From the NCBI RefSeq assembly GCF_963678975.1, contig NC_089275.1:33119116-33183115 (forward strand): a stretch of DNA of 64,000 nucleotides, given 5' to 3'. The position numbers and the translations under genes are program-made. A model generated the notes under the pieces. It did no database searches. It saw nothing but the letters and a program-made list of their open reading frames with translations, and was not told the DNA's origin. Position 1 is the stretch's first letter, and each line of letters starts with the position of its first letter. The stretch comes from Dysidea avara (lineage: Eukaryota > Porifera > Demospongiae > Dictyoceratida > Dysideidae). This document shows positions 11,493 through 64,000 of the stretch, piece after piece.

Positions 11493-11660
11493 ATTTCATT
11501 TCTTTTTGTATTTGTATACCCCAAAGCCAGCCTATGGCCAGCTTTGGGACTTTTTAAACCTATGTTTTTTTTCTTTACTACAGGACGAAGAATAGATGAA
11601 GTAGATGTACGTACTTTAAATATTTTATCAGTAGATGTACAATTATATATATAATACATA

Positions 11661-17585: not shown

Positions 17586-17755
17586 GATTTCATTTCTTTT
17601 TGTATTTGTATACCCCAAAGCCGGCCTATGGCCAGCTTTGGGACTTTTTTAACCTATGTTTTTTTCTTTACTACAGGAAGAAGAAAAGATGAAGTAGATG
17701 TACTTTAAATATTTTATCAGTAAATGTACAAATTATATATACTGTATAATACATA

Positions 17756-17985
17756 TGTGACCGGATTTGCGAAAAGGGGTCCAATTTGCCAACTTTGACA
17801 ATTGATAACTTCAGATTGGAAAGAGCTATTGCCTTGATATTTGGGCAGTGGTGAGCACCACTATAGCTGAATACATGGTGAAATGTTCAGGTTAATAATT
17901 ATGTTACTTGAACACTGAGTTATGGTCTCCAACATTTACGGAATTGGATGTGTGTGGAAGACCCCTTTTCGCAAATCCGGTCACA
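17756..17985. mobile_element. Complete MITE, TIR TGTGACCGGATTTGCGAAAA
   Basis: 230 bp, perfect inverted ends TGTGACCGGATTTGCGAAAA continuing to GGGG, TA at 17754-17755 and 17986-17987. No coding capacity. It is the intact version of the fragment at 11661. Confidence 0.9.
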
Positions 17986-17989
17986 TATA

Positions 17990-20900
17990 TTGATTACAGA
18001 AATCTCCATGGTGGTTTCTTTGTAACTGAACACTCTACAAGGTGACTTCTTCTAATTGCTCTCTCTACAGGGTGAATTGTTTGTAGCTGAACGATCTACA
18101 AGGTAACTTCTTCTAGCTGATCTCTCTACAGGTGATGTGTTTGTAGCTGAATTTTGTATAGGTGATTTGTTTGCAGCTGAGCTCTTTACAGAATGGTTTC
18201 TTTGTACTGAACTCTCTAAAAGGTAACTTCTTCTAACTGATCTTTCTACAGGGCAATTTGTTTCTGGCAGAATTTTCTACAGGGTGATTTCTTTGCAGCT
18301 GAACTCTCTACATGGTGGTTTCTTTGTAGCTGAACTCTCTACAAGGTAATTTCTTCTAGCTGATCTCTCTACAGGGAGATTTGTTTGTAGCTGAACTATC
18401 TACAAGGTAACTTCTTATAGCTGATCTCTACAGGGTGATTTGTTCGTAGTTGAATTCTGTACAGGTGATTTGTTTGCAGCTGAGCTCTTTACAAAATGGT
18501 TTCTTTGTAGCTGAACTTTCTCCAAGGTAAGTTCTTCTAACTGATCTTTCTACAGGGTGATTTGTTTGTAGCTGAACTATCTACAAGGTAATTTCTTCTA
18601 GCTGATCTCTCTACAGGGAGATTTGTTTGTAGCTGAATTCTGTACAAGTGATTTGTTTGCAGCTGAGCTCTTTACAGAATAGTTTCTTTGTAGCTGAACT
18701 CTCTACAGGGTGATTTGTTTGTAGCTGAAATCCCTACAAGGTAACTTCTTCTAGCTGATCTCTCTACAGGGTGATTTGTTTGTAGCTGAACTCTCTACAG
18801 GTGATTTGTTTGTAGCTGAACTCTACAAGGTGATACTTCTAGGTGATTTCTCTACAGGATTCCTTGTTTCTAACTGAACTCTCAACAGGGTGATCTGTTC
18901 ATAGCTGAACTTTCTACTGGGTGATTTGTTTGCAGCTGAACTCTCTAAATGGTGGTTTCTTTGTAGCTGAACTCTCTACAATGTGACTTCTTCTAGCTGA
19001 ACTCTCTACAAGGTGACTTGTTTCTAGCTGATCTCTCTACAGGGTGACTTGTTTCTAGCTGAACTCTCTACAGGTGATTTGTTTGTAGCTGAACTCTCTA
19101 CATGGTGGTTTCGTTGTAGCTGAACTCTCTACAAGGTAACTTCTTCTAGCTGATCTTTTTCACTGCATATTTGTTTGTAGCTGAGTTCTCTACAGGGTGA
19201 TTTGTTTGCAGCTGAACTCTCTACATGGGAGTTTCATTGTAGCTGAACTCTCTACAATGTGACTTCTTCTAGCTGAACTCTCTACAGGGTGACTTGTTTC
19301 TAGCTGAACTCTCTACAGGTGATTTGTTTGCAGCTGAACTCTCTACATGGTGGTTTCTTTGTAGCTGAACTCTCTACAAGGTAACTTCTTCTAGCCGATC
19401 TTTCTACAAGGTGATTGAGTTTTTTGCAGCTGAACTCTTTACATGGTGGTTGCTTTGTAGCTGAACTCTCTAAAAGGTGACTTCTTCTAGCTGAACTCTC
19501 TACAGGATGATTTGTTTGCAGCTGGATTCTCTACGTGGTAGTTTCTTTGTAGCTGAACTCTCTACAATGTGACTTCTTCTAGCTGAACTCTCTACAGGGT
19601 GACTTGTTTCTAGCTGATCTCTCTACAGGGTGACTTGTTTCTAGCTGAATTCTCTACAGGTGATTTGTTTGCAGCTGAACTCTCTACATGGTGGTTTCTT
19701 TGTAGCTGAACTCTCTACAAGGTAACTTCTTCTAGCTGATCTTTCTACAGGGTGATTTGTTTGTAGCTGAATTCTCTACAGGGTGATTTATTTGCAGCTT
19801 AACTCTCTACAAGGTGACTTCTTCTAGCTGAACTCTCTACAGAGTGATTGATTTTTTTTGCAGCTGAACTCTCTACATGGTGGTTTCTTTGTAACTTAAC
19901 TCTCTACAGGGTGATTTGTTTGTAGCTGAACTCTCTACAGGGTGATCTGTTCATAGCTGAACTCCCTATAAAGTAACTTCTTCTAGCTAATCTTTCTACA
20001 GGGCGATTTGTTTGTAGCTGAGTTCTCTACAGGGTGATTTGTTTGCAGCTGAACTCTACATGGTAGCTTCTTTGTAGCTCTACAATGTTACTTCTTCTAG
20101 CTGAACTCTCTACAAGGTGACTTGTTTCTAGCTGATCTCTCTACAGGGTGACTTGTTTCTAGCTGAACTCTCTACAGGTGATTTGTTTGCAGCTGAACTC
20201 TCTACATGATTGTTTCTTTGTAGCTGAACTCTCTACAAGGTAATTTCTTCTAGCTGATCTCTCTACAGGCCGATTTGTTTGTAGCTGAACTCTCTACATG
20301 ATGGTTTCTTTGTAGCTGAACTCTCTACAAGGTGATTTCTTCTATAGCTGATCTTTCTACAGGGTGATTTGTTTGTAGTTAAACTCTCTACACGATAGAT
20401 TCTTTGTAGCTGAACTCTCTACAAGGTGATTTCTTCTATAGCTGATCTTTCTACAGGGTGATTTGTTTGTACCTGAACTATCTACATGATGGTTTCTTTG
20501 TAGCTGAACTCTCTACAAGGTAACTTCTTCTAGCTGATCTCTCTACAGGACAATTTGTTTGTACCTGAACTCTCACATGATTGTTTCTTTGAAGCTGAAC
20601 TCTCTACGAGGTGATTTCTTCTAGCTGATCTTTCTACAGGGTGATTTGTTTGTAGCAGAACTCTCTACAAGGAAACTTCTTCTAGCTGATCTCTCTACAG
20701 GGAGATTTGTTTGTAGCTGAACTCTCTATACATGATTTGTTTGCGGCTGAATTCTCTACATGATGGTTTCTTTGTAGCTGAACTCTCTACAAGGTAACTT
20801 CTTCTAGCTGATCTCTTTACAGGGTGAATTGTTTGTAGCAGAACGATCTACAAGGTAACTTCTTCTTACTTATCTCTCTACAGGGTGATTTGTTTGTAGC

Positions 20901-21439
20901 TGAACTTTTTACAAGGAAACCTCTTTTAACTGAGCTCTGTACAGGGTGAATTGTTTGTAGCTGAACTATCTACAAGGTAACTTCTTCTAGCTGATCTCTC
21001 TACAGGATGATTTGTTTGTAGCTGAACTATCTACAAGGTAACTTCTTCTAGCTGATCTCTCTACAGGGTGATTTGTTTGTAGCTGAATTCTGTATAGGTG
21101 ATTTGTTTGCAGCTGAGCTCTTTACAGAATGGTTTCTTTGTAGCTGAACTCTCTACAAGGTAACTTCTTCTAGCTGATGTATCTACAGGGTCACTAGTTT
21201 GTAGCTGAATTCTCTACATGGTGGTTTCTTTGTAACTGAACTATCTACAAGGTGACATCTTCTAGCTGATCTTTCAACAGGGTGATTTGTTTGTATTTGA
21301 ACTCTCTACAAGAAATCTTCTTCTAACTGATGTTTTAACAGGGTGAATTGTTTGTAGCTGAATTCTCTACAGGGTGATTTGTTTGTAGCTGATCTCTATA
21401 CAGGTTACTTATTTCTAACTGATCTCTTTAATTCTGTTC
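17990..21439 (+). repeat. Satellite array 2, ~30-bp monomers
   Basis: About 3.45 kb of the same satellite as 11771-15072, with somewhat different variant mixtures (for example GGTGACTTGTTTCTAGCTG blocks near 19000-19700). The arrays have diverged or been rearranged since the two carriers separated. Confidence 0.95.
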
Positions 21440-28163: not shown

Positions 28164-28883
28164 TCACTCGGCTTCTCCAATGCTCTGAGGAAATCTCGGG
28201 CTACTTGTGGTATGGACAAACTGATACCTCTTTGAAAAATTGGAAAATTCTGTAGATGAATATTGAGGCCCGTTGTCTGAAAACAATTGCTGTGGGATAC
28301 CATGTCTGGCAAATATCGACTTGAGATGACAAATCACTTCTTCAGAAGTCTCATTTCTTAGCTTGCTGATTTCAATAAACTTGGAGAAATAGCCTATCAC
28401 TAACAAGTACGTATCTCCTTTCCATTTAAACAAACCAGAAGCAACTTTTTGCCATGGTAGTGCTGGATGAGTAGATGGTATTAATGGTTCGGCAGGTTGG
28501 TTTTGGAACTCACAGCAAATAGGACAGCCATGAACAAGGTTCTCTAGTTGAGTACTGAGACCTGGCCACCATACAGACACTTTGGCTTTCTCATGACACT
28601 TTGAAATACCTTGGTGGCCTGTGTGCAACTTCTCTAGGATATCTGATCTAAGTTGTGCAGGTATGATGATTCTACTGCCTCTCATTAGCAAGTCATCCTG
28701 AAACGAAATTTCACCCGCAACAGGATAATAAGGTTTTACTATACCTGGTACATGTCTTTTATCCGGCCATCCATCTTTGCAGTATTTTACAAGCTGTTGA
28801 CAAACTTCATCTTTGAGTTGGAATTGTTTGGTTTGATGAATACGTTGATCTGATGCTGGTAAATTCTCACACACTAAATTCAC
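28164..28883 (-). pseudogene. Gypsy integrase (zinc-binding and catalytic core)
   Basis: 239 residues. The H2C2 zinc finger appears as HTGHQGISKCHEKAK, VWWPGL and CPICCEF. The rve catalytic core follows with ALPWQKVASGLFKWKG, where the family has D in GxDLF (here GLF, apparently mutated or shifted), then LVIGYFSKFIEI, a second Asp in FSDNGPQYSS, and PRFPQSIGEAE carrying the catalytic Glu region. It acts in insertion of retrotransposon DNA. Loss of the first Asp suggests it is inactive. Confidence 0.8.
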
Positions 28884-29998
28884 GTAAGCTGTAACTTCTT
28901 GATTGAACTGTTCATCAGTGAATGAAGAAGCCCTAACTGGTGCTTGAGATAAAGTATCAGCAGTTGAAAGGTCTTTGCCAGGTACATGTGAGATCGTAAA
29001 TTGAAATCACATTAGTTGCATCTTGAATCTCTGAACACGGATTGGTAAATCGTCAAGATGTTTGGAACTCAACAGTGGAATGAGGGGTTTGTGGTCAGTT
29101 TGAACATGGAAGGTCTTGCCAAGTAAATAGTCGCTGAATCATTCACAGGACCAAGTGATAGCCAGTGCTTCCTTCTCAATCTGTGCGTACTTTTGTTCAG
29201 TAGGTGTAAGTGCTCTCGATACATACGCAACTGGCTGCCATGTTCCGGAAGGTTGTTTCTGAAGTAGGACTCCTCCTAATCCGAATGCTGAGGCATCAGC
29301 GAATGCAATGGTATCACGGTCTGGACTATACAGTGCTAGTACTGGACTGGAACTCTGCAATTTTGTCACTGCAGTAAATGCTTGCTCTTGAGGTGTATCC
29401 CATACCCAAGAATTCTTTGAGCTGAGCAGATCACGTAGAGGTTTGGTGACTTCTGCTAAACTGGGAGTAAATTTACCTAGTTGGTTTGCCATGCCCAGGA
29501 ATCGTCGTACTTCTGAAGGAGAGGTGGGACTTTTCATCAATTGGACTGCTTCCACCTTCTGTGGGTCAGGGAGTATCCCAGCACTATCGACAAGTTGACC
29601 CAAAAATCTGACACTCTGTGTCGAAAACTGCATTTCTCCTTATTGAGTGTAACTTTGGCTTGCTTTAGACGTTCTAATACAGCAGTCAATCTTTTATCAT
29701 GTTCATCTTGGTCTTGGCCATAGACAAGAATGTCGTCCATCATACATACCACACCACTCAGATCGTGCAATAACTCACTGATTCTCTTTTGGAAGGATTT
29801 GGGAGCAGAAGTAATTCCAAATGGAAGTCCGTTAAAGCAGAATCTTCCAAATGGAGTAATAAATGTAGTAAGTAAAGCTGATTCTTTCTGTAATGCTATC
29901 TACCAAAACCCCGAATTTGCGTTAAGTTTGGAGAATACTTTTGCTTCGCCTAACTGAGCAAGGATGTATTCCAGATGGTATGGGGTGTTGTTCCCTTA
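28884..29998 (-). pseudogene. Gypsy reverse transcriptase and RNase H
   Basis: The RT palm motif reads DLSGVVCMMDDILVYGQDQ (the YMDD-type motif as MMDD). It is followed by the thumb region (LKQAKVTLNKEKCSF) and, after a frameshift near 29610, by VRFLGQLVDSAGILPDPQK, VRRFLGMANQLGKF and the RNase H start FADASAFGLGGVLLQKQ with RALTPTEQKYAQIEKEALAI. The remaining RNase H to about 28900 is in broken frames (HKPLIPLLSS). Upstream, 29770-30000 holds RT fingers in several frames. The gene is clearly decayed. Confidence 0.8.
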
Positions 29999-29999
29999 G

Positions 30000-30979
30000 G
30001 ACACTTTCATTTAACTTGGTGAGATCAACACAAATATGTTTCTGCCATCTGGTTTTGGTACTACGACCATAGCTGTGCACCATTCGGTTGGTATGTCAAC
30101 TTTTGATATAACCCCAGATTTCTCCATTCTCTCTAGCTCACTTTTGACTTTTGGCAGAAGAGGAAGGGCAACTCTTCTAGGCATTGTAATAGTGAATGGT
30201 CTGGCATTGTCACTCAGGCGGATTGTATACTCACCTGGTAAGGAGCCTAAGCCTTCGAAGAGTTCAGGAAATTTGGCTGGAATATCTAATGTTATGTTAT
30301 TGACTCTGGACACTAGTTCAAGTGCCTCAATTGCTGGAAGCCCAATAAGTGCTTTGTGCAAGTCATGGATTACAAACACTTCTTGTTCCACTACTATGTT
30401 GTTATATTGCATAACACCAGTAAACTGACCACATACCTCAAGGGTCTTCTGGCATGGTCCACTCAAGGATCGACTACAGTGCTGCAACTCTACTCCATTT
30501 AATTTCTTGAAAATTGATTCAGGGATAACGGTTACATCAGCTCCCATGTCTATTTTGAAGTTAACATCATGGTTATTGAGAGATACTGTGACAGAACATG
30601 TAGGTTTGTTGGCAGTATTAGTTTCAACTGCTCCAAGGAAGTCATCAACACTGTCTTCTGTAGGACTAGTTGACTCAATCACGTTAACTCCTTTGGAATG
30701 ACACACTACTTGGTAGTGACCTTTCATAGAACATTTCTGACAGACAGCTTCTCGTGCCGGACATTGTTGTCGACTGTGCAGTGGTGATTTTCCACATCTG
30801 GTACAAGTGTCCTTATGCACTGTTTGTGGCTGCTTAGGATTATCAATTGGTGGGGGTTGAGGATGTGTACTCTTCCTTACTTGTGATTTTTTGTACACTA
30901 CTCTGTCTATGTTCGGAGACTGATCTGGACCTCGTATCACTGACTGTTGACGTTTCACTGCTTCACTGACAGGTAACAA
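30000..30979 (-). pseudogene. Gypsy protease and start of RT, with zinc knuckle
   Basis: 322-residue frame. Zinc knuckles: CTRCGKSPLHSRQQCP and CQKCSMKGHYQVVC. The aspartic protease motif is FKIDMGADVTVIP, where the family has D-T/S-G, so the catalytic triplet is altered to DMG and probably inactive. Later IEALELVSR and the RT N-terminus LPLLPKVKSELERMEKSGVI, TEWCTAMVVVPKPDG. A frame change near 30020 separates it from the rest of RT. Confidence 0.82.
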
Positions 30980-31463
30980 TTACTGCTCGCTTCAAAGTAA
31001 GCTCTGGGTCAAGTTGAAGTTTCATGGATACTTGCATGTCACGCAAGCCCACTACTAAGCGGTCTCGAATCATTTCCTCTCGAAGTGGTCCATAAGAACA
31101 GTTTTCAGCAAGTGTGTGTAAGGCTGTCACAAACTGGTCGACTGTCTCGCCATCTTGTTGGCGCCGGATATTGAATTTGGCGCGCTCGTGTATCACGTTT
31201 CTCCCCCTTGCAAAATGTTCGTCAAACTTTGTCTTTACTGGTTCGTATTTCTTTTTGTTGTCGTCACTCAGATCCATTGAACTCAATATGTCGTCTGCGG
31301 CATCGCCCATCGAATAAATAAGAGTGTTAACTTGCTTTGCCTCGTCTTTCGAGTGCAGTCCTGAAGCTTGACGGAAGCGTTCGAACTTACGAATCCATCG
31401 AGGCCACTCTTCGGGACGGTCAAAGTTGAAATTCTCTGGTGCGACAATCTGAAATGATGCCAT
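30963..31463 (-). CDS. Gypsy gag (capsid-like) protein, N-terminal part
   Basis: 166 residues starting MASFQIVAPENFNFDRPEEW, with PRWIRKFERFRQASGL, INTLIYSMG-like VNTLIYSMGDAADDIL, DEHFARGRNVIHERAKFNIR and GETVDQFVTALHTLAENC, which is the gag fold of invertebrate gypsy elements. It overlaps the zinc-knuckle/protease frame by 17 bases in another frame, so gag was either continuous with it or joined by frameshifting. Confidence 0.8.
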   Translation of the reverse strand: MASFQIVAPENFNFDRPEEWPRWIRKFERFRQASGLHSKDEAKQVNTLIYSMGDAADDILSSMDLSDDNKKKYEPVKTKFDEHFARGRNVIHERAKFNIRRQQDGETVDQFVTALHTLAENCSYGPLREEMIRDRLVVGLRDMQVSMKLQLDPELTLKRAVIVTCQ

Positions 31464-31542
31464 GTCAAGTTCGTCGGTGTTTAATCTTTCTACAGTTCAC
31501 GATGATAAAAATATCACTTAGTTCTCTTAGTTCCTTGAAGAA

Positions 31543-48654: not shown

Positions 48655-49200
48655 TGTTGTTTATTATTATTTATTGTTAATCAGCAGGATCCTCCAGGGG
48701 TATAATGCTGATGTGCAATTACATGTGTACAATTTCAATTAATTACTTAACTATATAAGTATGTATAATTACGACAAGTTACTTAATTATATACATACTG
48801 TATGTACAATTACAATAATAAACTATAAAAATATATACAATTACGATAAGTTACTTAACTATGTACATAGAAGGGGCTAATTTTTGCGTAAATTCTTCAA
48901 CACAGTCTCAATAATCTAATCTATTCCATTCTGGTACAGTTCTTGGGAGGAAGGAATATTTATATACATCAATTCTTGGTTGGTAAGGTACTAGTTTAAA
49001 GTTGTGTGAGTGTCGGGTCCGTAATACAGTAGATTTAAATGAGAGGTAACAGTTTGGTATAATTAATAAATCATGTACTTTAGATAGTAAAATTAGTCTT
49101 AGACTAGCTGATTTGCGACGTTCTTGTAGTGTAGGCCATTGCAAGTTTTCAAGGATGTTAGTGATGCTGTCTCTATTATTTCGTCGGGAATATATATAAC
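48655..49200 (-). pseudogene. LINE ORF2 C-terminal fragment
   Basis: Minus strand LENLQWPTLQERRKSASLRL, STVLRTRHSHNFKLVPYQPR and DVYKYSFLPRTVPEWNRLDY, a typical LINE C-terminus (W..L..RR..A.L, then Y.YSF.PR...WN.L), followed by a 3' UTR to about 48655. Its 5'-truncated end abuts the 50-bp array starting near 49205. Confidence 0.8.
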
Positions 49201-49204
49201 AAAG

Positions 49205-49429
49205 AAAATATTGTAGCAAATAGTTTAGTTAAAAGGAAATTTGTAAGGGTGGAATCATTGCGAAAAACAAACGTTTTATTTAAAGTATGCACATACAGTG
49301 GAATCATGGCGAAACAAAAACGTTTAATTGAAAGCCCTTACACATAATGTAATCATACACACTTACCATTGCTTTAAACAAAACAAACGCTTTCTGCTAT
49401 GACTCTCGCAACTAAAGTTCTTTAAATGA
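49205..49429 (+). repeat. 50-bp-period array, left part
   Basis: About 4.5 units with box centres at 49228, 49278, 49327, 49377 and 49425, that is every 49-50 bases. The box is a half-palindrome near CTTTAANNNAAAG (GTTTAGTTAAAAGG, GTTTTATTTAAAG, GTTTAATTGAAAG). Two units share GTGGAATCATKGCGAAA upstream of it. The rest of each unit varies. A CR1 LINE interrupts the last unit; the array resumes at 53863. Confidence 0.75.
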
Positions 49430-49738
49430 GAATAAAAATGGCGGTTGCGTAAGAGATTCGTCTGCTACACGACGACTGTTCATTGCTACTCTATCATCGC
49501 CCCCAACAAGACCTAGACATTTCGGACTGGTAGTGTGATTTTACGTCGTCTGCTGGCTACTGGGTACACTCTGGGATCCTCTTCACCCCAATTAACGCCC
49601 ACAACTAAGCGACTCACCTCGTACCGTGGTGTCAAACCTCGCCAGGATTGGTAAAACGGTACCATAAAAGGCGAGAAATCAATCTATCACCTGTACTGTG
49701 TTTCGTTGTAACATTTTCAGTTGTGAATTTTTGTCACC

Positions 49739-50685
49739 ATGACGACACCTCAACGACCCCACAAAAGAAAGAGACCACAACTGAGTTCCCCTGGGAAAAA
49801 TTCAACAATTTGCCCAGTCTGCCTTGACCCTATTTTAGATGCTACTGAAAACACTGAAGGCCAAGAAGCAATATTTTGTGAAAGTACTTGTAACTCCTGG
49901 ATACACCGCCAGTGTGCTGGCCTATCTCAAGTTCTATTCAAAATATTTGAGGAAAGTGATGAGCCTTTTTACTGTCCCCATTGTCGCTTGGCCTCACAGG
50001 ACAAGCAACTGCAGGAGTTGAAGAGTATGGTGGATGTTTTATCCAAGGAGGTGGTCTCACTCAAATCTATGGCATCCGATCAACAAGCCCCAAAGTCACC
50101 ATCTTCAACTCCTCAACAACGACCACTACAAGAATCTCAGACAATTTCAACTGCAGCTGGTAAGCAAACTCAACTACCTACTATCACAAAGACAAGTCCA
50201 TCCAGCAGAGGAGATCGTAAGTTTAATGTGGTAGTATATGGCACTGATGAGTGTGATAAGGGAATACCTAGGCATGAGAGACTAAATCATGACTTACACA
50301 AAGTTACCACTATTGTTACTGAGGCTAAGACTAACATAAATCCTTTATCTATACGTGACCTTCTGCGACTGGGAAAGTACCGTGACAATTCCTAGAAACC
50401 TCGACCAATACTAGTTAGATTCAATTGAGCTGTTGACTCTTCACTTTTGTTATCTAAGGCCAGTGCATTGCCTAAAGACATAAGAGTTAAGCCTGACATG
50501 TCCAAGGAAGAAAGACTTGTAGAGTCACTTCTTCTTAAAGTAAGACGGCAACAAATTGACAAGGGAATTGAACGCAAACATATCAAAATGCATAACAACA
50601 AGATCTACATATGAAATAAGTTACATGGTCAAGTTATCGATTCAGTATTTGTCCCGTCTCGGTCTCAACAAGATAGAGATGAATA
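49739..50685 (+). pseudogene. CR1 ORF1 (PHD-like zinc finger, coiled coil)
   Basis: Starts MTTPQRPHKRKRPQLSSPGK. The zinc finger has ICPVCLDPI, FCESTCNSWIHRQC and FYCPHCRLA, matching the PHD-like finger of CR1 ORF1 proteins. A coiled coil follows (QLQELKSMVDVLSKEVVSLK), then a Ser/Thr/Gln-rich linker and an RNA-binding-like region (NVVVYGTDEC, LSIRDLLRLGKY). A TAG at 50393 ends the open frame. The same frame continues through TGA codons at about 50427 and 50613 with coding character (SKEERLVESLLLKVRRQQID). It is thought to bind element RNA. Confidence 0.8.
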
Positions 50686-53600
50686 GATGCTACCCACAAC
50701 AAAGTTACTGCTGACCATGATTCTCCCACTCAAATGGATTCATCATCAAACTGACTACCTAACAGACAAGTTCATGATTCTACAAATTACACACATGATC
50801 ACACAATCAATTTCAATGAATCAGATACTAGAAGTGGCAGCAGTAATCTCAAAGTTCTCCTATGGAACGCACGTAGTTTAAATAAACAAATTAATGCTTT
50901 TCAATCGTATGTGTACTCTCAATCTTTTGACATAATTGGAGTAACTGAAACTTGGCTCTCAACTAACATTTTTACTAATGAAATATTTCCCTCTTGCTAC
51001 ACTGTTTTAAGAAAAGATCGAGATAGTAGAGGTGGTGGTGTATTATTAGCTTTCAAATCTTTCCTCACAGTAACGCAGTTGTCCTCTCCAAATGATTTAG
51101 AAATAGTCTCTGCTGAGATAGACCCAAATTTGCTCGTGTGTCTGATATATCGTCCACCTAACTGTTCTGATCAATATAATACCTCACTCATGGCATAACT
51201 CAATTCATTCGATAGTACCCAAAACATGGGAGATTTAAATTTTCCTTACATAGACTGGAGTATCTACAGTGGTAGTTCCCCCACAGCTGATGATTTCGCA
51301 GAAGTAGTATTTTGACTCAATTTGATTCAATGCATAACTGGCCCCACGCATCGCGCTGGGAACACCCTAGACATAGCCTTGTCTAATATTAGTGGCCTTC
51401 AACATATTGAAACCTGCACAAACCTACCACCCAACCTCTCATCTGACCATTATTTGATAAAATTTCTCATTAACCATGTCCTCAGCAAACCTACAAAAAT
51501 ACGTATACAAAGATTAGATTACAATAAAGTTATATTAACTGGGAGGACATGAACCAATTCCTTACAGAATATGACTTTACCTTAGCATTGAATTCTAAAA
51601 ATGTCGAGTTTATCTGGCTATACCTGAAAACTGCCATAAATAGTGCTTTAAATCTATATGTTCCTAAGATCTCTATTAAAGAATCAAATCATCCCAAGTG
51701 GTTTAATCCAACAATCCGTCACAAAATCAAGTGCCTCCGCACTGCTAAGAGACAACTTGTGAGACATCCTACAGAAAGGAAAAGACTTAAAGTGGAGGAT
51801 CTACAAAGGGAATTACAACAGATGATAACTGAAGCAAAGCATGATTATGAAACAAATCTAGCTTTAAATTATGCTCACAGTAATAGTAACAAAATTTTAA
51901 AATATATATCAAGTATCAAAGGGCGAGAAAGCTTTCCTGCTAAAATGTACCACATAAATGAATCAGCATCCACTGACTTGGAAAAAGCTCAACTATTTAA
52001 CAATTATTTCCACTCAGTTTTTTCTACATTTACAGGTTCAACATCATCTGTATCTGACTTACAATCAAGCAGTGTCACTCCTCATGTTCAAGATATTCTG
52101 TTTTCTGATTCTGACGTCCTTGACTTACTTATATCTCTTGACGAAACCAAAGCTTGTGGCATTGACAGCTTTAGCCCAAAAATCTTCAAACACCGTGCAG
52201 GGCCACTACTTCATATAATTTGCCATCTTTTTCACATGAGTATATCATGCAGTTTTATTCCTCTTGACTGGCGCACTCATTGTGTGGTTCCTGTGTACAA
52301 ATCTGGGGACAAAAGTTCTGTGAGCAACTACAGACCCATCTCACTGTTATGTATTTTATCGAAGGTTCTAGAAAGAATTGTGTATAATAATATAATTAAT
52401 CATGTCAGAGAACAATCCACCAAACATCAGTTTGGTTTCCTTCCTAGAAGATCTACGTTACAGCAGCTACTAGTATTTGCAGAAAAAGTCTTTGAACCTA
52501 ACAAATGTGAAGTGGATGTAGTATACATGGATTTCAAGAAAGCTTTTGACTCTGTCTCTCACCACCACTTACTTGGCAAATTACAAACCTTTGGAATAAC
52601 TGGTAAAGCAAGACAGTGGTTTGAAGCATATCTACACAATCGCTATCAATGTGTCAAGATAGGAGATTCACTGTCAGAATTATGTTATGTACATTCAGGG
52701 GTGCCCCAAGGAAGTGTCTTAGGACCTTTGTTATTCGTCATTTTCATTAACAACCTACCTGAATTCATTCAATTTGCAACTCCTTTTATATACGCTGATG
52801 ACACCAAACTTCTATATGCAATTAGATCTCATGAAGATACTGCAAAGTTACAAACTGATATCAACAGAGCTTCTAATTGGAGCACCCTGACTGACTTACC
52901 TTTCCACGAATCCAAATTTATTCATTTACGTTTCTTCTCGACTACAACAGTCCCCTCTACATACACCATCAATGGAAATCCTATTAAATGTCTAGCACGG
53001 CATAAAGATCTTGGAGTAACATTCACATCTGACTTCAGCTGGTCAGCATACTATAACAACATATGTATGAAAGCTTACCAAACCTTAGGACTTGGAAGAA
53101 CATTCCAGGTTAACGGTGCTGAGGCAAAGAAACGTCTATACCTAGCACTAGTCAGATCACAACTATTATATTGTTCACAACAATTGAGGCCTCAACTAAT
53201 AAGAGACATTACTGCACTAGAACGCATTCAACAAAGAGCCACTAAATATATTCTTAACGATTATACATCCTCATACAAACTCAGACTGGAACAACTGCAT
53301 CTCCTGCCTCTCATGTATCACTACGAACTCCAAGATATACTGTTTCTAATAAAATCATTAAAGTCACCCACTGATAATTTTAACATCTACAACTACATTA
53401 CTTTTGCAAGAGGCAACACCAGATCTGGGATTAACCAAAAACTGAATCATCCAAGGACATCATCAGTAACACAACATCATTTTTACTTTAACAGGATAGC
53501 CAGACTATACAATTACTTACCAGTCATTGATCTTTCACTATCTACCAACACAATTAAATATTGTTTAACTAACTACTTATGGTCGCATTTTACTAAATTA

Positions 53601-53711
53601 ATAACTTCAACCCTGAGAGAGCTTCTGCATTTCACCTTTTGTGCCCTTGCCACCGCTGCTCTAGAGCACCAATTTCTACCAATTTTAACAAACTCTAGCT
53701 ATCTATTGTAA
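50686..53711 (+). pseudogene. CR1 ORF2: APE endonuclease and reverse transcriptase
   Basis: The endonuclease part has LLWNARSLNKQINAFQSYV, DIIGVTETWLS, SRGGGVLLAFKS, LVCLIYRPPN and GDLNFPYIDW, with a TAA (51196), a TGA (51313) and small slips near 51225 and 51533. From 51549 a 720-residue frame is open: RT fingers DWRTHCVVPVYKSGDKS, NYRPISLLCILSKVLERIV, motif A VVYMDFKKAFDSVSHHHL, GVPQGSVLGPLLFVIFINNL, catalytic FIYADDTKLL, KDLGVTFTSDFSW and the C-terminal ERIQQRATKYILNDY region. Order and spacing are those of CR1-group LINEs. The RT half looks intact; the endonuclease half does not. Confidence 0.9.
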
Positions 53712-53855
53712 TTATAAGTAACTAACAGTTGTAATTATTAGTTATTGCTCTGTATTGTATGTATGTTTCTTTGGCAGTGGGTATCTATTACCCACTGACC
53801 TTTAATGCAGTCCTGAACTGCATTAAAAAGTATTAAAATAAATAAATAATAAAAA

Positions 53856-54225
53856 TAAATGAAAGGTTGGTTGCTACTGAGGAATCATGGCGAAGTAGAA
53901 CCGTTTAGGATCAAAACACCTTCATACGTTGAAACAATACACTTACGCCATTCTGAACGAAACAAATCCTTTTTGCTGGAATACTTGCAGTGTAATCGGC
54001 CTTTAATGGAAAGGTTGTATGCGACTGGCTGTAAACATGTCAGAGTCACAAACGTTTCAATCCAACAATATTACCTTTCTGGAATTACAGATGTTTAGAA
54101 TTCCTTTAAATAAAAGAACTCAGATTGCTGAGATCACCGCGACTAGAAAATCCTTTAAACGAAAGGTTTGCATTTAGCCACTATATTAGCAAGGTAAATG
54201 TTTTAGACGAAACGGTTGCATTTGG
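53856..54225 (+). repeat. 50-bp-period array, right part
   Basis: Seven to eight units in direct continuation of 49205-49429. In register every 50 bases: CCGTTTAGGATCAAAAC, CTGAACGAAACAAATCC, CCTTTAATGGAAAGG, CGTTTCAATCC, CCTTTAAATAAAAG, CCTTTAAACGAAAGG, GTTTTAGACGAAACGG. The intervening 35 or so bases are mostly unlike each other, except ATCATGGCGA-type text in some. It ends about 140 bases before the start codon of the composite gene. Confidence 0.75.
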
Positions 54226-54519
54226 TGTGCGGTAACAGACAATATTACTACAATGATGCCTTCTAGTAACCACATGTAGGTATTTATAAAAATCATGCTT
54301 CTTTACGCATGTGCAGTAGTTGTCACGAAAATCGATTGATTTGGTGTGAATTAATGTGGAGTTAAAAATGTCACAAGGTGAGCTTGCACGCACATTTATT
54401 CATCTTCATATGCCCTTTTACATTAGTTCACATACAAGGAGTGCCTGCTCGTAAGAAAAGGCGATTGGCAGCGCCGTTACCACCGCTACCGCCACAACAA
54501 GACCATAATTGGATTAGCA

Positions 54520-55360
54520 GCTTTAATTTGGAAGGGAGGATAATAATGTCTCAACACGAAGTAGGTGATGGTGCAACTAGTCGTGTGTATGTGGGAACCT
54601 TAGATGGTGTTACTGTTGCTGTTAAGCAGCTTAAGTTGCACACTCCCCGATTGGCATCAGCATTAATCCAGGCTTATGAGCAGCTTTTTAAGCTGAAGCA
54701 TGACAACATTGTTCAGGTATTTGGTATTTGTCCTACAAATGGTTACATTGTTATGGAATATTGTCACACAATACTTCATAATCACATACCCAGAACCTTG
54801 GGTGATTTATTGACGCACCGGCTATGGTGACGATTTGCCTGTTGAACACAGAATTATGGCCCTTAGTGATATTGCAGAAGGTTTACAGTACCTTCACTCT
54901 AATGATCTAGTGCATGGTGACATTAAACCACACAATGTACTGGTGGCAGGATCAGAACAGTAGTTTTTGTTTAAAATTACTGATTATGCCTGTTACAAAT
55001 ACAAAACTGCTAATCAATTTTCTTCCTGGTCAACTTCTCTCAAACAGCTAATGACACCAGGGTATTTGGCACCAGAATTGATAAGTGATGTAGGTAGCTA
55101 TTTACACCCAACTAAAGCCTCAGACATATATTCGTTTTCTATCTTGGCTTATGAAGTAGCCTTTATTCGTGAACCATGGCCAGCTGTCAACATGCAATTA
55201 ATTGAATCTGTTAGAAGAGGCATTAGACCTGTTGTTCCAAACAATGCTTCAACATTTATTTCCTCATTATTACAGAACTGTTGGAAGCATGATAGCTCAT
55301 CACGCCCAAGTGCTTTGTATGTGTCACAGTCCATCCAAGATTACCTGGAATTATCATCTC
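54520..55360 (+). other. Protein-kinase domain of the composite gene
   Basis: Glycine loop VGDGATSRVYVG, catalytic lysine in VAVKQLKL, hinge region IVMEYCH, catalytic loop VHGDIKPHNVLV (HGD for HRD, with Asp kept), metal-binding segment KITDYA (for DFG, Asp kept), APE-like GYLAPEL, then SDIYSFSILAYEV (subdomain IX), CWKHDSSSRPSA (subdomain XI Arg). HGDIKP and the CW...RP ending point to the tyrosine-kinase-like/RIPK-type group. A frameshift near 54815 and a TAG at 54961 lie between the loop and the activation segment. Key residues survive, so the ancestor probably was an active kinase or scaffold. Confidence 0.8.
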
Positions 55361-55849
55361 CACAAATTTTTGTTAAAGATATCAGTAACATAAATCCTGG
55401 CCAGAGTCAGAATCAATCGGCTGCTAATAGTGTTGTGATACATCACTCAATAATAGACAACGTTGCAAGTACTGCTTTATTAAGCGAACAGATAATCCCT
55501 ATACCTAACTCAAATTTCTCTGTGTCTGCTAAAGATGGAGGGTCTCAGACACTATTTGGTGATGTATCTTCCATTCATTCGGACAATAATGGAGCAAGCT
55601 TTAATTCTAACACACAAGGTAATGAAATACCACAAGATAGTCATCGTGTTACTGCTGACTTATCAGAATCTCCTTCAGATTCTTTACTCTCTACCCACAA
55701 CGATTATGCTCTGGAATACAATGAGTGTGTAGCTCCTTCAGAATCATCAACGGATGGTTTTGATTCTATTAGTAAGCAAGTATTATGCAGCTCTGATCCT
55801 AGTACAGTAGTTTCACCACTACAGATATCCAGGACCAAAGTGTGATTTC

Positions 55850-57100
55850 CCAACATATTAGCTGCTCAGATGTGATAAGTGGTGATGATATAGAAAAGAT
55901 TAAGACTGCCCTAAATGTCAGAGAATTAAAAGAGTTTCAAGTACAGTGCATTAATGCAGTTCAGCAAGGAAGGGATGTAATATTAGTTCAACCAACTGGC
56001 TCGGGAAAGTCATTGTGTTTTATTTTCTGGAAAAGTTTAATCCTGGAAAAGTTTGTATTGTTGTTGAACCAGTGGTGGCAATAATTAATAACCAAGTAGA
56101 AGCATTGGAAAGGAAAGGCATAGATGCTGTAGCATTAGGTAGGGCAGCAGAAACAAAGAAGAGGTCATCAAACTTTAAGCGTGTGTTTTACAGTTCCAAT
56201 CTTCCTACTCTGGCATTTTGTACTCCTGAGTATCTATTCGGTGCACCGAGTAATGACTCTTTCTCAGGGTCAAGTGGTCAATCCCATTTGTTGCCTGAAA
56301 TTCAGGACAAGATTTCTATGGTAATTATAGATGAAGCCCATAAAATCTTTGACTGCATGCCAGATTATTGCCCAGCTTTTGATGAAATGAAGCAATTACG
56401 CAAACTTCTGTGCCCACTTGTTGCAATGTCTGCAACATTAACAAGCTCATAGGTGAATACTCTAAAGCGAGAGTATTTAAGAAGCGATCTGTGTCTTGTA
56501 CTAACTAAAGGAGTACACCGAGACAATTTGCAGCTATATACGTATGCAACACTACAGGCGCCGAAAGCTAAACAGCTTAGGAGAAGGCATGGTGGATGAT
56601 CCTGATAGCGACAAAGAAAATAACGATGATATATCCATTTTGAGCAATGATATTTCAGCTAGTGTATATACATCTATGTGGGCAGACAGCATGAGTAGGA
56701 TTAGCTCATTGTTTGAAGGTCACTCATCAGTGCCCTACTTAGATTTTGTTTAGGATGTTGAGGAAGTTGCTAGTATTTTAGGCCAAAGCAATATTAAAGT
56801 GGGTAAGTATACTGGAGAAATGCAGATAGATGACCAAAAAATGGCAGACATAAAGTTTTTACATGGTGAAATATCAGTGTTAGTAGCAACTGAATCTTAT
56901 GAACTAGGAGTTGATAATCCTAATGTCAGTCAGATTATTAGAATTGGCTGCCCCCGTAATCTGGGTGTGTTCTTGCAAGAAGTAGGTCGTGCAGGTAGAA
57001 AGCTAAATAGTACAGCGAAAGGATTGCTACTTTTCAATGAATACATTGATGATAAGCATTTGGGTCAGTGGTTGAAATCTTCACTGGGTCCTAAAGGAGA
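55850..57100 (+). other. RecQ-like DEAH-box helicase domain of the composite gene
   Basis: Q-like lead-in LKEFQVQCINAVQQGRDVIL, Walker A VQPTGSGKSLCF, motif Ia IVVEPVVAIINNQVEAL, TPEYL, Walker B MVIIDEAHKIFD, motif III MSATLTS, then the second RecA lobe: GKYTGEM, SVLVATESYELGVD, PRNLGVFLQEVGRAGR. The last blocks match RecQ motifs V and VI (GID.P....H...P.....Y.QE.GRAGR). ATP-driven strand unwinding is the expected activity. The zinc-binding and winged-helix RecQ regions were not recognised; the following CMVCEH Cys pair may be part of one. Confidence 0.82.
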
Positions 57101-58009
57101 AGATCCGGCATTTAAAGCAGTGAAGTTGAGCATTCTTGATACATACACCAAAGCTTGGTGGTTCATTTATTCGATTTATAATGGGAAATGCTTATCTCGA
57201 GCTCTTGCTTACTTTTATGGCGGTGTCAATGATAACAATCCACCAACTTGCTTTCTGGCTAATAGTCCTCTGTGCATGGTATGTGAACATACTGAAGAAA
57301 TTTGTGAAGTTAGCATAGACATTAAAGATTTCTTGTTAGTGTTGCTGAATACTATCAAACAGCTATGTACAACTGGTTTTGCAGGTGTGACCAAAACCCT
57401 ACTGATATCTGTTTTGCTTGCCAACAATGAGAAGTACATTCATACATTTGTGGTTTTAACAGATATATTTGATAGCGAAGACACTTGTTGGGGGTCCGGC
57501 ATATCTATTAATGGCACAGCAATGTCACAATCTGCTTGGCACAAAGTATTGTATGTAGCAGTACATCTCTGTTTGATTGATTTGAACTTTACATTCAGAC
57601 CATTTGAAAACCACTACGAAGTGCACAGAAATATATTCTGTCTTCTGCAGGAAATGAGTTTTTGCAAATTCCAGGAGCAATTATGTCACTAGATCCACAT
57701 GCTTGCTTTATTGATAGAATTCTAGGTGTCACACAAAGAGTTTCTAAAAGATGCAATCAAAATCATGGTAAGCAACTGAAACCACGTATAGTAGCTGCAT
57801 TGGAAGAATGCCAAGAAGAAGGAACTGTGGATGACTTGAAATTGATTGGTTTTGAACGTGAAAATGATACGTGCATATTTTTCAAGGATTGCTTTTCTCT
57901 TCCATGTGCAACAAAAGATCCACATTATCTCCTTGAATCCATTCAGTTATCACGCACTCAAGCTGGTATTAAAGAAATGTCAGCTGTGATTGATGGGGTC
58001 ACAATGAAT

Positions 58010-59420
58010 CTTATGTGCAATCGATCATACTGTTCTGGTGTGAAAATGTGTGGAGCAGATGATTGTACTTATACAGTGTCCACCAAACAAAGGGTGAACA
58101 GATGCAAAGCACACCCAAAAATGGGTCTTTAGCAAACTGGTCCTTGTAGTTGCTATATTGCATACTTTTACCCACTAGATCCCAAAGAGGATGGGAGACA
58201 TTGGTTTGTGGTGATAAATGCAGAAAGCACTACTGCAGGTGACTTACATAATCACCTGCCACCATCAGAATGGAAACTTCCCCCGAAAATGATTAGTGAT
58301 ATTGTTGATGCAACAAAACGAAACATCCAGCTAACACCTAAAGAAATACAAAAAGGTGCTGGAATGGACTACAGACCAATGCAGGTGTCATTGGCTGCAT
58401 CTCACATTGGCAGAATACGAGCTGCTGTGAAAAAGAGTAGGCGTGATGTAGACAAGGTTGATCATGAAAAAGTAAATCCTTTTACAATAATTGCTAATTG
58501 CATCTTTTCCATCAATTAAAGAACGAGTAGACCAGAGTAATGCATCTGATATACAAGGAATTGATGACATGGTTGGTAAGTACCAACTTGATGGTGATGA
58601 CACTTACTCATTCGGAAGAGATAGACAATTTGCTTGGTTTCAAGCCCCATTTCAAGCATACCATTGGGCAAAAGTAGACGTTTTATTTGTAGATATTGAC
58701 TATACAGGGTGCCACCATTTTCCTTACCTTTTGAATGTTGTGTGTAAGAACACCGTGTTGCAGCAGTACATGGCTTGTGGCAGGGTGCTACTAAATCGTC
58801 AAGATGGTGCATCTATAGGGAAAGCCTTGTCTAAATTAGAGTGCAATATTAAAACCTTGTACAAGGAATACAACATCTCAAGAGATCAAAGGAAATTTTA
58901 TTAGATTTTGACGAGGCTGAATCTAATGCTTTTGTTGAAGCTTTTGGCAAGGAAATAGGAAATATTTTGCGAGGGTGCTCAGTGCATTTTTTTTGCTCGG
59001 CAATGCGTGTGGAAAAGCTGGTAAATTTGTCAACTTCCTCGCAGGGATATCACATTTTTATGTCAATTGCTAAAAAGATACCTGATGAACCTTCACCAGA
59101 TACTGTGATGAAGGCATTTGATGTGTTGTGTGGCTTAAAGTCTTTTGAAATATTTTCTTCCCAATTACCACCTGATTTAAAGTCGTTAAAAGCGAATAAT
59201 GTTGACACTAGCAAATGGGGAGATACACAAACCTGGGTAGACTGGTGGAGTCGGCCACAGATTTAAAAAAAAACTAACTGTGGCATTTAGTTCAATTTCT
59301 ATAGAAGATTGGCAAGATCTTCCAGATACCAATAATCCTGTTGAATCAATTAACAGACACAGCACTCCAGAGAATGTAAAATCAGTCTCTTTGAAACCTC
59401 TTATTGAACATTTTTATCTG
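58010..59420 (+). other. Zinc finger and Mutator-type DDE transposase domain
   Basis: A finger with CGADDC and RCKAH (C2-CH, FLYWCH/WRKY-GCM1-like) precedes the transposase, as in many Mutator-like proteins. HNHLPP and TPKEIQKG are typical of that region. The catalytic core shows VLFVDIDYTGCHHFPYLL (first Asp), then LLDFDEAESNAFVEAFG (second Asp) with CSVHF (C-x2-H), and DTNNPVESINRHS carrying the catalytic Glu, the TNN..ES pattern of MULE transposases. Frameshifts near 58500, 58890 and 59270 break it. It would have cut and joined the element's own ends. Confidence 0.75.
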
Positions 59421-59569
59421 GAAGACAGAAGAATAGCTGTAATGCAAATTGCTTCTTCTGCAAACGTAACAATTTCATATCAAGCAAATCCCAGAAAAAG
59501 AAGACGTCGCCCTGCAAAGCCTCCAGAGAAGAAAGCCTCATTAAGTTCAGTTCCTAAGGGAACCAAAGC

Positions 59570-59760
59570 AATTGGATGCAGAGTAAATGTAGAATTTTAT
59601 GAAGGAGAAGAAGGGGAAAGTTATCAAACTACTAAGTGGTACAAGGGCACAATTGTTGCATACAGTAAGAGGGGACATGTTGTTCTTTCGATGGATATGG
59701 TCCAGAACATAATGAAACAATAAAGCAACTGAAGAAGTCAGTAGAGAAGGGAGAGGTTCG
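59570..59760 (+). other. Tudor-like C-terminal segment of the composite gene
   Basis: GCRVNVEFYEGEE, TTKWYKGTIVAYSKRGHVV and, after a one-base slip near 59682, SFDGYGPEHNETIKQLKKSV. The pattern V.V.F......WYKG.I......G...V.FDGY resembles Tudor/chromo-barrel folds that read chromatin or methylated partners. Assignment is by pattern only. Confidence 0.5.
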
Positions 59761-60400
59761 GTTACTGTAGACTATAGACTAGTGTACGTGCGTGTATTTT
59801 TACTTCTAGTCAACATATACTTATAACTCATTGTTCACTATCTTTTCTGATTTATGATTTGATGTAATTTTTAACTTTAAATTTGGTTGCTGTAAGCTAT
59901 AGACTACTGCACATGCATGTTTGTCATTTATTACTTTACTCTTGTTTATTGTATCTTGTCTGTAGCTTCAGTGTTATTTGTCTGATTCATGATTTGTTGT
60001 AAATTTTATTAATTTAGAAACATTTTTTTAACAGAGGTCTATACCAATTGTGCAGCTGTATAAACATGATGAATAGCTATAGTTATAATATAATAATTGC
60101 AAGACTCCAATATACATGCAACATAACAATAACAGTATACGCCATTGACCACTTTCTGACTAATTTCAGCATTAGGCCATGGCCAGCCAAAATTCATTTT
60201 GTTTGAACATATTTTCAATGGAGAAGCCGTGCATTGATTGCCCTTGGCCTCTGCTAATGGATGGTGGTGTGTTTAGTATTACATTAATTTAAGTTAATTG
60301 TGGGAGGGCTGAGCATTGATAACAGAGACGACCAGGAAATTCAGAAATTATCATTATAATTGTAAGATTCATATGCATGAGCATAGTACAATGATTAGTT
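59761..60400. other. 3' region of the composite gene; no gene seen
   Basis: Starts with an imperfect duplication (GACTATAGACTAGTGTACGT and GCTATAGACTACTGCACATG, about 130 bases apart). The rest is AT-rich and unassigned. Confidence 0.6.
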
Positions 60401-60790
60401 ACAAATTAAATTAGAATGTAAGTAAGTAAGTAAGTAAGTAAATTAATTAAGTATAAGTAATTATGTATAGAAGAGATCACTGGTGTACAAGTGTAGAGAA
60501 CTGTTGTAGAGTTGGTGCAATGACAGTGACACTTGGTAAAGCATTCCACTGAGGGATTACTCGTGGAGATGAACTTGTAGCTATTAACTGTTGAAGATAT
60601 TGTAATAAATCTTTTGTTGTGACCTCTAGTGATAAGAGAGTTATTAATCATGCATTCTGGGAGTGAAATGTCCAATAAACCTTTTAAGATTTTATAAAGA
60701 ACACATAGAGACCGAATATCTCGTCTCTTCTTCAAGCTGTCCCACTGTAAAGTTGATAACATTTCACTAACACTGCTGTATCTGTTAATT
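60401..60790 (-). pseudogene. LINE ORF2 C-terminal fragment with TAAG tail
   Basis: Minus strand MLSTLQWDSLKKRRDIRSLC, LYKILKGLLDISLPECM and NSLITRGHNKRFITISSTVN match the L.W..L..RR....LC..YKI....LP pattern of LINE C-termini. A frameshift follows before the usual SF.PR. The 3' tail is a (TAAG)n microsatellite at 60419-60442. Confidence 0.75.
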
Positions 60791-61325
60791 GGTTGAGAAT
60801 TCTTTAAAGTGCAGCTTAAAATTAATGTGTTTCTATGATTCCATAATCTGACATTAAAAGTGCTGATGTATGGAGGAAGGTGATGCAGAATTAATATTTT
60901 AACCTATGGCAGTTTCCAAATCTTGTGCAGTATGTGGTAAATTTATAATTGTTCATATAGTGTTGAAATGATCAGATGGTTCTTAAGGCTATAAAAACCT
61001 CAAATCATCAAGTACATTAATGATATTAATTGTATAAGTTAATTTGTTATGTGTAGCCCTAAGTTAAATGTATTCCAGAGTGATGATTATATATGCAAAG
61101 CTGAGAGCAGACTTGAATACTTTATTATATAACTATAGAAGTGGCTAATAGTATAACTACATGCTTTGTAGCTATATATATATACATATATATAATTTAT
61201 AGTGCTATAGCTATAGGCTGAAAACATATAATCATGCATGGCATCATGAGAAATTCATATAGGTTGTGTCTGCATGCATCATGGTATGTGAATGATGGGA
61301 TACAATCAGCTATAGCTATATATAA
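60791..61325. other. No recognisable feature
   Basis: AT-rich with scattered TATAGCTATA palindromes (61140-61325). No gene or repeat array. Confidence 0.55.
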
Positions 61326-61585
61326 ATGCAGGTCACCATGATCTCAGCGAATGCTCTATCTTTTGGGCTAAAGAAATGCAGGTAGCCATGATCTCAGCAA
61401 ATGCTCTATCTTTTGGGTTAAAGAAATGTAGGTCGCCATGATCTCAGCAAATGTTCTATCTTTTGTGTTAAAGAAATGCAGGTCGCCATGATCTCAGCAA
61501 ATGCTCTATCTTTTGGGTTAAAGAAATGAAGGTCGCCATGATCTCAGCGAATAGCATTTCCTTTGAATAAAAGAAATGCAGGTGG
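61326..61585 (-). repeat. 50-bp tandem array, inverted relative to the left array
   Basis: Five units of exactly 50 bases. On the minus strand each reads TTGCTGAGATCATGGCGACC, then TGCATTTCTTTAACCCAAAA, then GATAGAGCAT. This aligns position by position with the unit at about 54118-54167 (TTGCTGAGATCACCGCGACT...CTTTAAACGAAAGG). The first four units are nearly identical; the last (61545-61585) has CCTTTGAATAAAAG, closer to the left array. Confidence 0.9.
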
Positions 61586-62208: not shown

Positions 62209-63001
62209 CGGATCCAGGACCTGGCAAGGGGAGGGGCACAAACAGGCCAAGTTGTAGGTGGTTAGGAAGAGTCAGATTCTGTTGTTAGTTGCTGCATTTT
62301 TGTGCAGCAAATAATGCACCTCTTAGTAGTATCTCACTGTTGATTTTTACCATTTTTGCCTTTGTGAAGTCTTAAAAACTGTTTAAATAGCTCTGAATGT
62401 CTTAAACAACAGCAACACGATAATTATTTTAGAGGCGCTTAGTACGCACGAAGGTGTAGGGTGACAATTTCATAGCTAGTTTGAGTTTGGTTCGCTTTGG
62501 TTTCAGGTGAATTTGTAATAAATGCTAATAAATGTGCATATTTTCATGAGTTATATAAGCTGATCTTGGCCTGACATACACTGTGCAAAAAGAGGGATAT
62601 AATATGGTATTTCCAGTGGCTTATTGAATACAAATAAGCCTTAATATAAATCCTGTATTATACTCATTTTATACTTTAGTATAATCCATACTATACTATT
62701 GCATCTATGGTTTCAGTTTATTAACCACATTACCTTAAATAGCTTATATCTAGTATAATGCCCACACTATACCATCATATATATGGTTTCAGTATATTTA
62801 ACACATTAACTGAAGTCTTACATGAGATTGTTAGTATAATACAGGTTATACCAAGCTTTTTTGTATTCAATAAGCCACTGGAAATACCATCTTATATCCC
62901 TCTTTTTTCACAGTGATAAAGTTGTAGAAGTAGCTATGGCTCCTCCACAAGGTCACTGGGGGGGGCATTTGCCCTAAATGCCCCATCCTGGATCCGCCAT
63001 T
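62209..63001. mobile_element. MITE-like element, TIR GGGCGGATCCAGG
   Basis: Left end CAGGGGCGGATCCAGGACCT and right end with inverted AATGGCGGATCCAGGAT. CAGGG at one end suggests hAT, but I could not find a matching 8-bp duplication. It contains the 337-bp element at 62579-62915. Confidence 0.55.
62579..62915. mobile_element. 337-bp MITE, TIR CACTGTGNAAAAAGAGGG
   Basis: About 60-bp inverted ends (CACTGTGCAAAAAGAGGGAT... and CACTGTGAAAAAAGAGGGAT...), both with TTCCAGTGGCTTATTGAATA, flanked by ATA at 62576-62578 and 62916-62918. Non-coding and AT-rich inside. A 3-bp duplication fits Harbinger-type elements only loosely, because their usual target is TWA. Confidence 0.8.
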
Positions 63002-63465: not shown

Positions 63466-64000
63466 TCAGTTATCAGCCACTGGTCGACCATCAGTGCACA
63501 GCCAAACCATCTTATGCTGCCACGCTTCTTTGGGTACTTGAATACATATATTTGCATGGTACCACTCCTGGCACTCGGAACATTCGACCATTGACGCCTC
63601 ACTGATTTCTGGCATTCGGCAAAAACAGTAAACTTTAATTGATTGTGTATTTGTAACCTTTGTTGCTTTTAATCTTCGAGTGTGTGTTATCGGAAACTCC
63701 TCAATTCTTTCTACCTCAAAACATTTTATCAAGTGTTGTCTCATTAATGGTTGGTTATAAAAGATCAACTCTGGTTGCTTGCCAAAGCATAATGAGGTAG
63801 CAAATGCAATAGAAAATAAGCCGCAATCACTTGTTCCACTTTGCCGTTGAATATCCACAAAGTGGACATTAATCTGTCTGAATTGGGTCTTCATAATGCA
63901 TGCTATTTGATGCTGGACATTTTCTGACAATTGCCAGTATAGACTGTCGTAAACAAAAACGTTTGGTTCTTTTGTTTCAATTGTTGAAATTGTAAGCCAG
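63466..64000 (-). CDS. Ulp1-type (C48) protease with C-terminal PHD finger, partial
   Basis: Open to the window edge on the minus strand, so the N-terminus is missing. The visible part starts WLTISTI and EPNVFVYDSLYWQL, then RQINVHFVDIQRQSGTSDCGLFSIAFA. The Asp of VYDS, the Gln of QRQSG and the Cys of SDCG correspond to the catalytic Asp, oxyanion Gln and nucleophile of Ulp1/SENP proteases. The His should lie just off the edge. After a linker comes a PHD-like finger: VYCFCRMPE, MVECSECQEWYHANIC, MVWLC. Ulp1-PHD proteins of this kind are multi-copy in sponges and cnidarians and are usually parts of DNA transposons. No lesion is visible here. A host SUMO protease is less likely because of the PHD tail. 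Confidence 0.75.
   Translation of the reverse strand, partial: WLTISTIETKEPNVFVYDSLYWQLSENVQHQIACIMKTQFRQINVHFVDIQRQSGTSDCGLFSIAFATSLCFGKQPELIFYNQPLMRQHLIKCFEVERIEEFPITHTRRLKATKVTNTQSIKVYCFCRMPEISEASMVECSECQEWYHANICIQVPKEAWQHKMVWLCTDGRPVADN

Follow-up and report, generated by a model that had tools for sequence, protein, structure and literature searches.

A decayed fused gene and its domains

The window analysed here is a 64-kb stretch of contig NC_089275.1 from the demosponge Dysidea avara, and at 54368-59767 it holds a single decayed gene, divided into ten segments by nine frame breaks and carrying four in-frame stops. Read through with an X at each break, the gene gives 1784 residues, in which a kinase of Tyr/Ser-Thr type is followed by a RecQ helicase, a Cys/His zinc domain, an IS256/Mutator-type DDE core and a Tudor domain. 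An initial annotation made from the letters of this DNA had described a decayed transposon in which a kinase, a RecQ-like helicase and a Mutator-type transposase are fused; the decay is as described, and the fusion is confirmed by unbroken relatives, in which it forms a single chain. Matches to all the relative proteins that we fetched are confined to 54426-59767 (tblastn against the 64-kb window). There is no second copy of the gene in the window, none of the 575 tblastn matches starting outside 54300-59800. The parts of the gene are as follows.

54368-54438, plus strand: probable first exon (MSQ, with a split G) and 61-bp intron at 54378-54438, placed by GT..AG and the start point of relatives
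54439-59767, plus strand: decayed main exon of the fusion gene
54549-55326, plus strand: protein kinase domain, with HGDIKPHN and with DYA in place of DFG (PF07714 on two pieces)
55890-57640, plus strand: RecQ helicase, with two lobes, zinc region and winged helix
58031-58255, plus strand: Cys/His zinc domain with terminal HNH, from conserved residues (coordinates counted from the sequence)
58500-59410, plus strand: DDE transposase core, limits approximate (D 58692, D 58904, CxxH, E 59343)
59559-59767, plus strand: Tudor/Agenet-like end

The GT...AG interval at 54378-54438 is a probable intron, which would link the start codon to the point where the relatives begin. On unjoined pieces of the window copy, Pfam matches above the cut-off identify the kinase (two PF07714 matches, E 7.5e-10 and 3.3e-13), the DEAD lobe (E 2.7e-07 and 6.8e-10) and Helicase_C (E 1.1e-12), and the helicase stretch, when read through, resembles solved RecQ structures (4tmu, E 3.2e-25). 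For the transposase stretch of the window copy the Pfam scan gave no convincing match. Foldseek of the transposase model against the PDB gave no match at E<=0.001, nor did a profile search of PDB sequences give any, and the fold link of the transposase is that made by VIA-align. Against viral models, Foldseek returned a single match at E<=0.001, to an uncharacterised bracovirus protein (1.8e-10); a Phantom-type element is reported from a polydnavirus in a review of Mutator-like elements, or MULEs (PMC6446971).

Relatives of the fused protein and the origin of the fusion

Searching 5.8 billion proteins gave 88 matches, 16 of which (P0001-P0016) belong to the fused family, the remaining 72 covering at most 22% of the query. 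P0001, P0002 and P0003 cover 100% of the query at 48-51% identity, each as one unbroken chain. The contigs on which P0001-P0006 lie are 6.8-10.7 kb long. Eight of the 16 (P0001-P0007 and P0013) hold in one chain the complete set of residues that we checked for the kinase (Lys, catalytic-loop Asp/Lys/Asn, DFG Asp, APE), RecQ (Walker A, DExH, motif VI) and the DDE triad, while the other eight, being shorter or internally gapped, miss some part. With P0013 as query, 50 proteins were found, including P0149, an annotated protein of the coral Stylophora pistillata named RecQ helicase, in which the Pfam order is kinase, DEAD, Helicase_C and a weak MULE match (0.023). Another coral copy, P0098, is from Montipora. 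The relatives fall into a near clade, which includes the window copy, and a distant one; in four of 13 distant-clade proteins (P0013, P0149, P0150 and P0153) the motifs HCDL, Walker A and NP[VA]ES occur together, and the remaining nine lack one or more of them. One-chain relatives thus total eleven, eight by the full set of residues and three by these marker motifs, with lengths of 1630-2040 residues and the same domain order. Because unbroken relatives carry all the parts in one chain, the kinase-RecQ-transposase fusion is, on the evidence of these sequences, real and not an artefact. Kinase, helicase and transposase in separate genes, the outcome that the initial annotation had named as speaking against it, were not what the relatives showed.

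The DDE triad is retained in every relative that covers the positions (16 aligned with the window copy). The kinase Lys, the HxD Asp, the Asn and the DFG Asp are present in the window copy and 12 covering relatives, P0010 being without the Lys region; the DFG position reads DY followed by A, S, C, V or T in the near clade, and DFG is intact in P0013 and P0016. Walker A, DExH, motif VI, the zinc region and the winged helix mark the helicase as RecQ, with the exception of P0016, which has Thr at the first Arg of motif VI. Two features of the Mutator superfamily were found, namely a DDE core of the MULE/IS256 type and a zinc-binding domain preceding it, the latter by its conserved Cys and His, no profile having given a finger type. 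This domain had been taken for a C2-CH finger. It is better regarded as a larger zinc domain: five Cys and one His are common to both clades, a sixth Cys is found in the near clade only (Ala in P0013-P0016), and a terminal HNH follows.

Among nine sequences, the pairwise distances computed for kinase, helicase, winged helix and DDE core show correlations of 0.96-0.97 with one another, or of 0.76-0.89 when the distant P0013 is left out; for the short Tudor part the values are lower (0.90-0.93, and without P0013 0.37-0.48). Of 29 helicase cores placed in one tree, the 16 chosen from the family (the window copy and 15 relatives) form one clade with support of 100, outside which lie the 13 non-family cores, including BLM, WRN, Q4, Q5 and bacterial RecQ. 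Given the correlated distances and the single RecQ clade, one ancient fusion would fit the data better than repeated captures.

Beyond these proteins, IMG/VR yielded no relatives with P0001, A1, A3 or P0013 as queries. The sole match from the GTDB scan was L001, a contig of a Planctomycetaceae metagenome-assembled genome (MAG), with a 32% match across query residues 414-506 in the helicase part. One relative of the transposase part, P0129 (63% identity), carries the name of an Acidobacteria MAG, and its source is probably animal DNA that ended up in the bin of a symbiont. Between kinase and RecQ, 11 of the 13 distant-clade proteins checked (P0013, P0149, P0150, P0151, P0153, P0015, P0016, P0152, P0156, P0158 and P0159) carry the motif DG[ST]NAC, with its Cys, followed after about 130 residues by DTH, with its His, in ten of these 11. 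This region is perhaps a cysteine-peptidase-like domain absent from the clade of the window copy; its sole profile hint is Herpes_teg_N (E 0.065), in P0015.

Flanking arrays, insertions and other repeats

The gene lies between tandem arrays of units of about 50 bp, which are interrupted or approached by later insertions.

49205-49429, plus strand: left array, outer part, of decayed ~49-bp units (period 49, exact core at 49300), outer limit uncertain
49430-53862, plus strand: CR1-like long interspersed nuclear element (LINE) with RVT_1, inserted in the left array and foreign to the original element ("CR1" is the label of the initial annotation)
53863-54200, plus strand: left array, inner part (profile match 54101-54166, exact core at 53881), inner limit (~54200) approximate
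60406-60903, minus strand: LINE-like 3' fragment, a later insertion, labelled by eye (open reading frame (ORF), no Pfam match)
61324-61583, minus strand: right array, 5.2 copies of 50 bp

The insertion at 49430-53862 contains RVT_1 (E 6.4e-30) in ORF 51528-53711 and a weak PHD match in ORF 49727-50395. Both its edges read AAATGA, only 6 bp, and rejoining its flanks restores a repeat unit. With the insertion removed, the strongest period in the upstream 668 bases is 49, a strength reached in none of 200 shuffles.

The initial annotation placed arrays of one repeat family, in inverted orientation, upstream and downstream of the gene, and a profile of the right array upholds this. Its best non-self match in the whole 64 kb is 54101-54166, on the opposite strand (E 0.0016), and in the inverted sense the left region scores 14.2 bits, against 5.4 for the best of 500 shuffles, which were scored on one strand. 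The direct sense gives 7.7 bits, because the repeat unit is partly palindromic. A second inverted match, of 9.2 bits, spans the rejoined insertion site. Exact matches to GNRATCATGGCGA, a pattern picked after the arrays had been seen, occur in the window at 49300 and 53881 on the plus strand and at 61433, 61483 and 61533 on the minus strand, and nowhere else; the sub-motif CTTTAA...AAAG, with one mismatch allowed, is at chance level in the window (12 found, 10.4 expected). Since profile matches succeed while simple local alignment stays within controls, we take the left and right arrays to be old relatives of each other in inverted orientation.

The limits of the element are less clear than its arrays. 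An array does stand at 49205, the proposed start, yet that position marks only the apparent stop of a LINE-like minus-strand fragment near 48720-49228 (assigned by eye, no Pfam match). On the right, the proposed distance of about 1.6 kb between gene and array is 1.56 kb, of which the fragment at 60406-60903 takes about 0.5 kb. Neither LINE-like fragment has a convincing target duplication, and a search at the edges of the arrays revealed no short inverted ends.

Other repeats are found elsewhere in the window. A block of about 4 kb occurs twice, at 11174-15051 and 17267-21242 (77.7% identical over 4133 columns); each copy holds a minisatellite of about 3.3 kb with 31/61-bp units, and there are palindromic stretches at 11174-11494 and 17261-17594, so that the block looks like a Foldback-type element. 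On the minus strand lie a DDE_Tnp_4 transposase fragment (4979-5524, E 7.1e-37), broken pieces of a long terminal repeat retrotransposon (28164-31496: gag, aspartyl protease, RNase H and integrase) and an ORF open at the window edge (63466-63999), which possibly encodes another transposon protein, with a weak PHD (8.3e-05) and an Ulp1-type peptidase (0.0064), both just below the cut-off. An inverted repeat at 62579-62915, with 61-bp arms that are 95% complementary and 215 bp between them, resembles a miniature inverted-repeat transposable element.

Identity of the element, its possible action and known systems

We regard the locus as probably a decayed copy of a Mutator/IS256-class DNA transposon, about 7.4-7.9 kb long without later insertions, with ends formed by inverted arrays of ~50-bp units and one gene for kinase, RecQ, zinc domain, DDE core and Tudor domain. 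This reading rests on the order of the domains, on relatives that conserve it in one chain together with their catalytic residues, on arrays in inverted orientation and on the decayed state of the window copy. The gene product is a real, conserved multi-enzyme transposase that most likely belongs to a Mutator-class element having Foldback-like ends, and calling the element an autonomous transposon seems well motivated, its mobility being what we infer. Several observations weigh against this identification. The MULE profile is weak throughout the Pfam scans and absent for the window copy, and kinase activity is uncertain because of the DY[ACSTV] that stands for DFG in the near clade. When the flanks were compared by plain local alignment, the score did not rise above controls, nine of 300 being as high. 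The left array edge adjoins the LINE-like fragment, the left end is undefined, and a search around the array edges for a target duplication of the 8-11 bp expected in the Mutator superfamily gave nothing convincing, the best candidate (11 bp with two mismatches, at 49183 and 61585) being roughly what we estimate for chance. Finally, clusters of relatives reach a size of 260, which suggests many copies and may instead count many assemblies of one locus.

The same observations can be read in other ways. A host gene family could have captured a Mutator transposase long ago and ceased to be mobile, the window copy being a pseudogene and the arrays local minisatellites; such repeats are common in the window, the coral relative bears a gene annotation, and mobility enters our own account by inference. 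Retention of the DDE triad and zinc residues in both clades, the related and inverted arrays on both sides and the large protein clusters all speak for a transposon instead, and we consider the host-gene explanation unlikely. Less likely still is that the element is mobile but has its true ends outside the arrays, with the gene as cargo or core of something larger and the arrays internal to it: the left edge beside a LINE-like fragment, and array edges with neither short inverted ends nor duplication, would suit this, whereas the array is close to the gene on both sides and the window has no further element genes of the fused kind. That adjacent kinase, helicase and transposase genes were falsely joined by read-through might be suspected from the ten frame segments of the window copy. 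In view of the eleven one-chain relatives of like order, we reject this as extremely improbable, a judgement that stands unless all of them are mispredicted alike.

Cut-and-paste transposons are thought to borrow the repair and signalling of their hosts. The fusion of a transposase to RecQ and a kinase is a hint that certain elements carry such steps themselves. In the decayed transposon that we favour, the zinc domain and the winged helix of the helicase would bind the units of the two terminal arrays, cutting and joining would fall to the DDE core, and the Tudor domain might direct insertion towards chromatin that carries marks. The RecQ part of the protein could unwind repair intermediates, allowing the donor gap to be refilled by copying from the sister, while the kinase may time the reaction by phosphorylating its own protein or repair and cell-cycle factors. 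The element would then supply in cis the helicase function that P-element gap repair draws from host BLM: in flies, according to PMC8951532, a 14-kb gap left by P element excision is poorly repaired without BLM, a RecQ helicase, and likewise without HELQ or FANCM. More tentatively, at a little short of even chances, we propose an animal transposon lineage, common to corals and the host of the window, that moves by means of one protein with its own RecQ, for gap refill, and its own kinase, for timing or for taming the damage response. Transposon control of donor-site repair would become testable within one protein. The set of accessory domains is absent from the literature that we found and, if the proposal is true, would constitute a self-contained machine for cutting, signalling and repair.

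Among the papers listed in a literature survey whose scope left most subscription journals and Repbase outside, we recognised no report of a kinase-RecQ-transposase element. MULEs, including Phantom and Rehavkus, share with the window element a DDE core with CxxH and a preceding zinc domain; they have long inverted ends, to which the related inverted arrays of the window may correspond, and their known accessory features are OTU, SET and PHD domains and minisatellites (PMC6446971). The main text of that review contains neither "helicase" nor "kinase", whereas in the window family both are fused to the transposase. Tandem-repeat arrays are present on both sides of the gene and may represent ends of the kind known from Rehavkus and Foldback-type elements; a PHD finger as in Rehavkus is not among the Pfam matches listed for relatives (25 of 59 families in one scan). 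Comparable too are the Tm1 Mutator/Foldback elements, with a Phantom-type transposase between inverted tandem-repeat arrays (PMC3169594). Their units are of about 14 bp, against about 50 bp here, their 9-bp duplications have been shown, and the main text is without the word "helicase". The TRADD-N fusions likewise join a signalling domain to Mutator-related transposons in animals, with no kinase-RecQ-transposase chain described in the available portion of the paper (PMC8195603).

Regarding the helicase, KolobokH resembles the window family in joining RecQ to a DDE transposase (PMC9587614). There, RecQ follows the transposase, on its downstream side, and fungi are the only known source of the lineage, whereas the window family has RecQ upstream, a kinase and a Tudor domain in addition, and a Mutator/IS256-like DDE core; a red-alga Kolobok has RecQ on the opposite strand (PMC9587614). 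We rejected membership in KolobokH because the domain order differs, RecQ being upstream of the transposase in the window copy and its relatives. The telomeric RecQ genes of a fungus, as far as their description is accessible (PMC4522978), have no bearing on the window element. With the host RecQ helicases BLM, WRN, Q1, Q4 and Q5, the window family shares the lobes, the zinc region and the winged helix, and it differs from them in forming a separate, fully supported clade (support 100) in which RecQ is fused to a kinase and a transposase.
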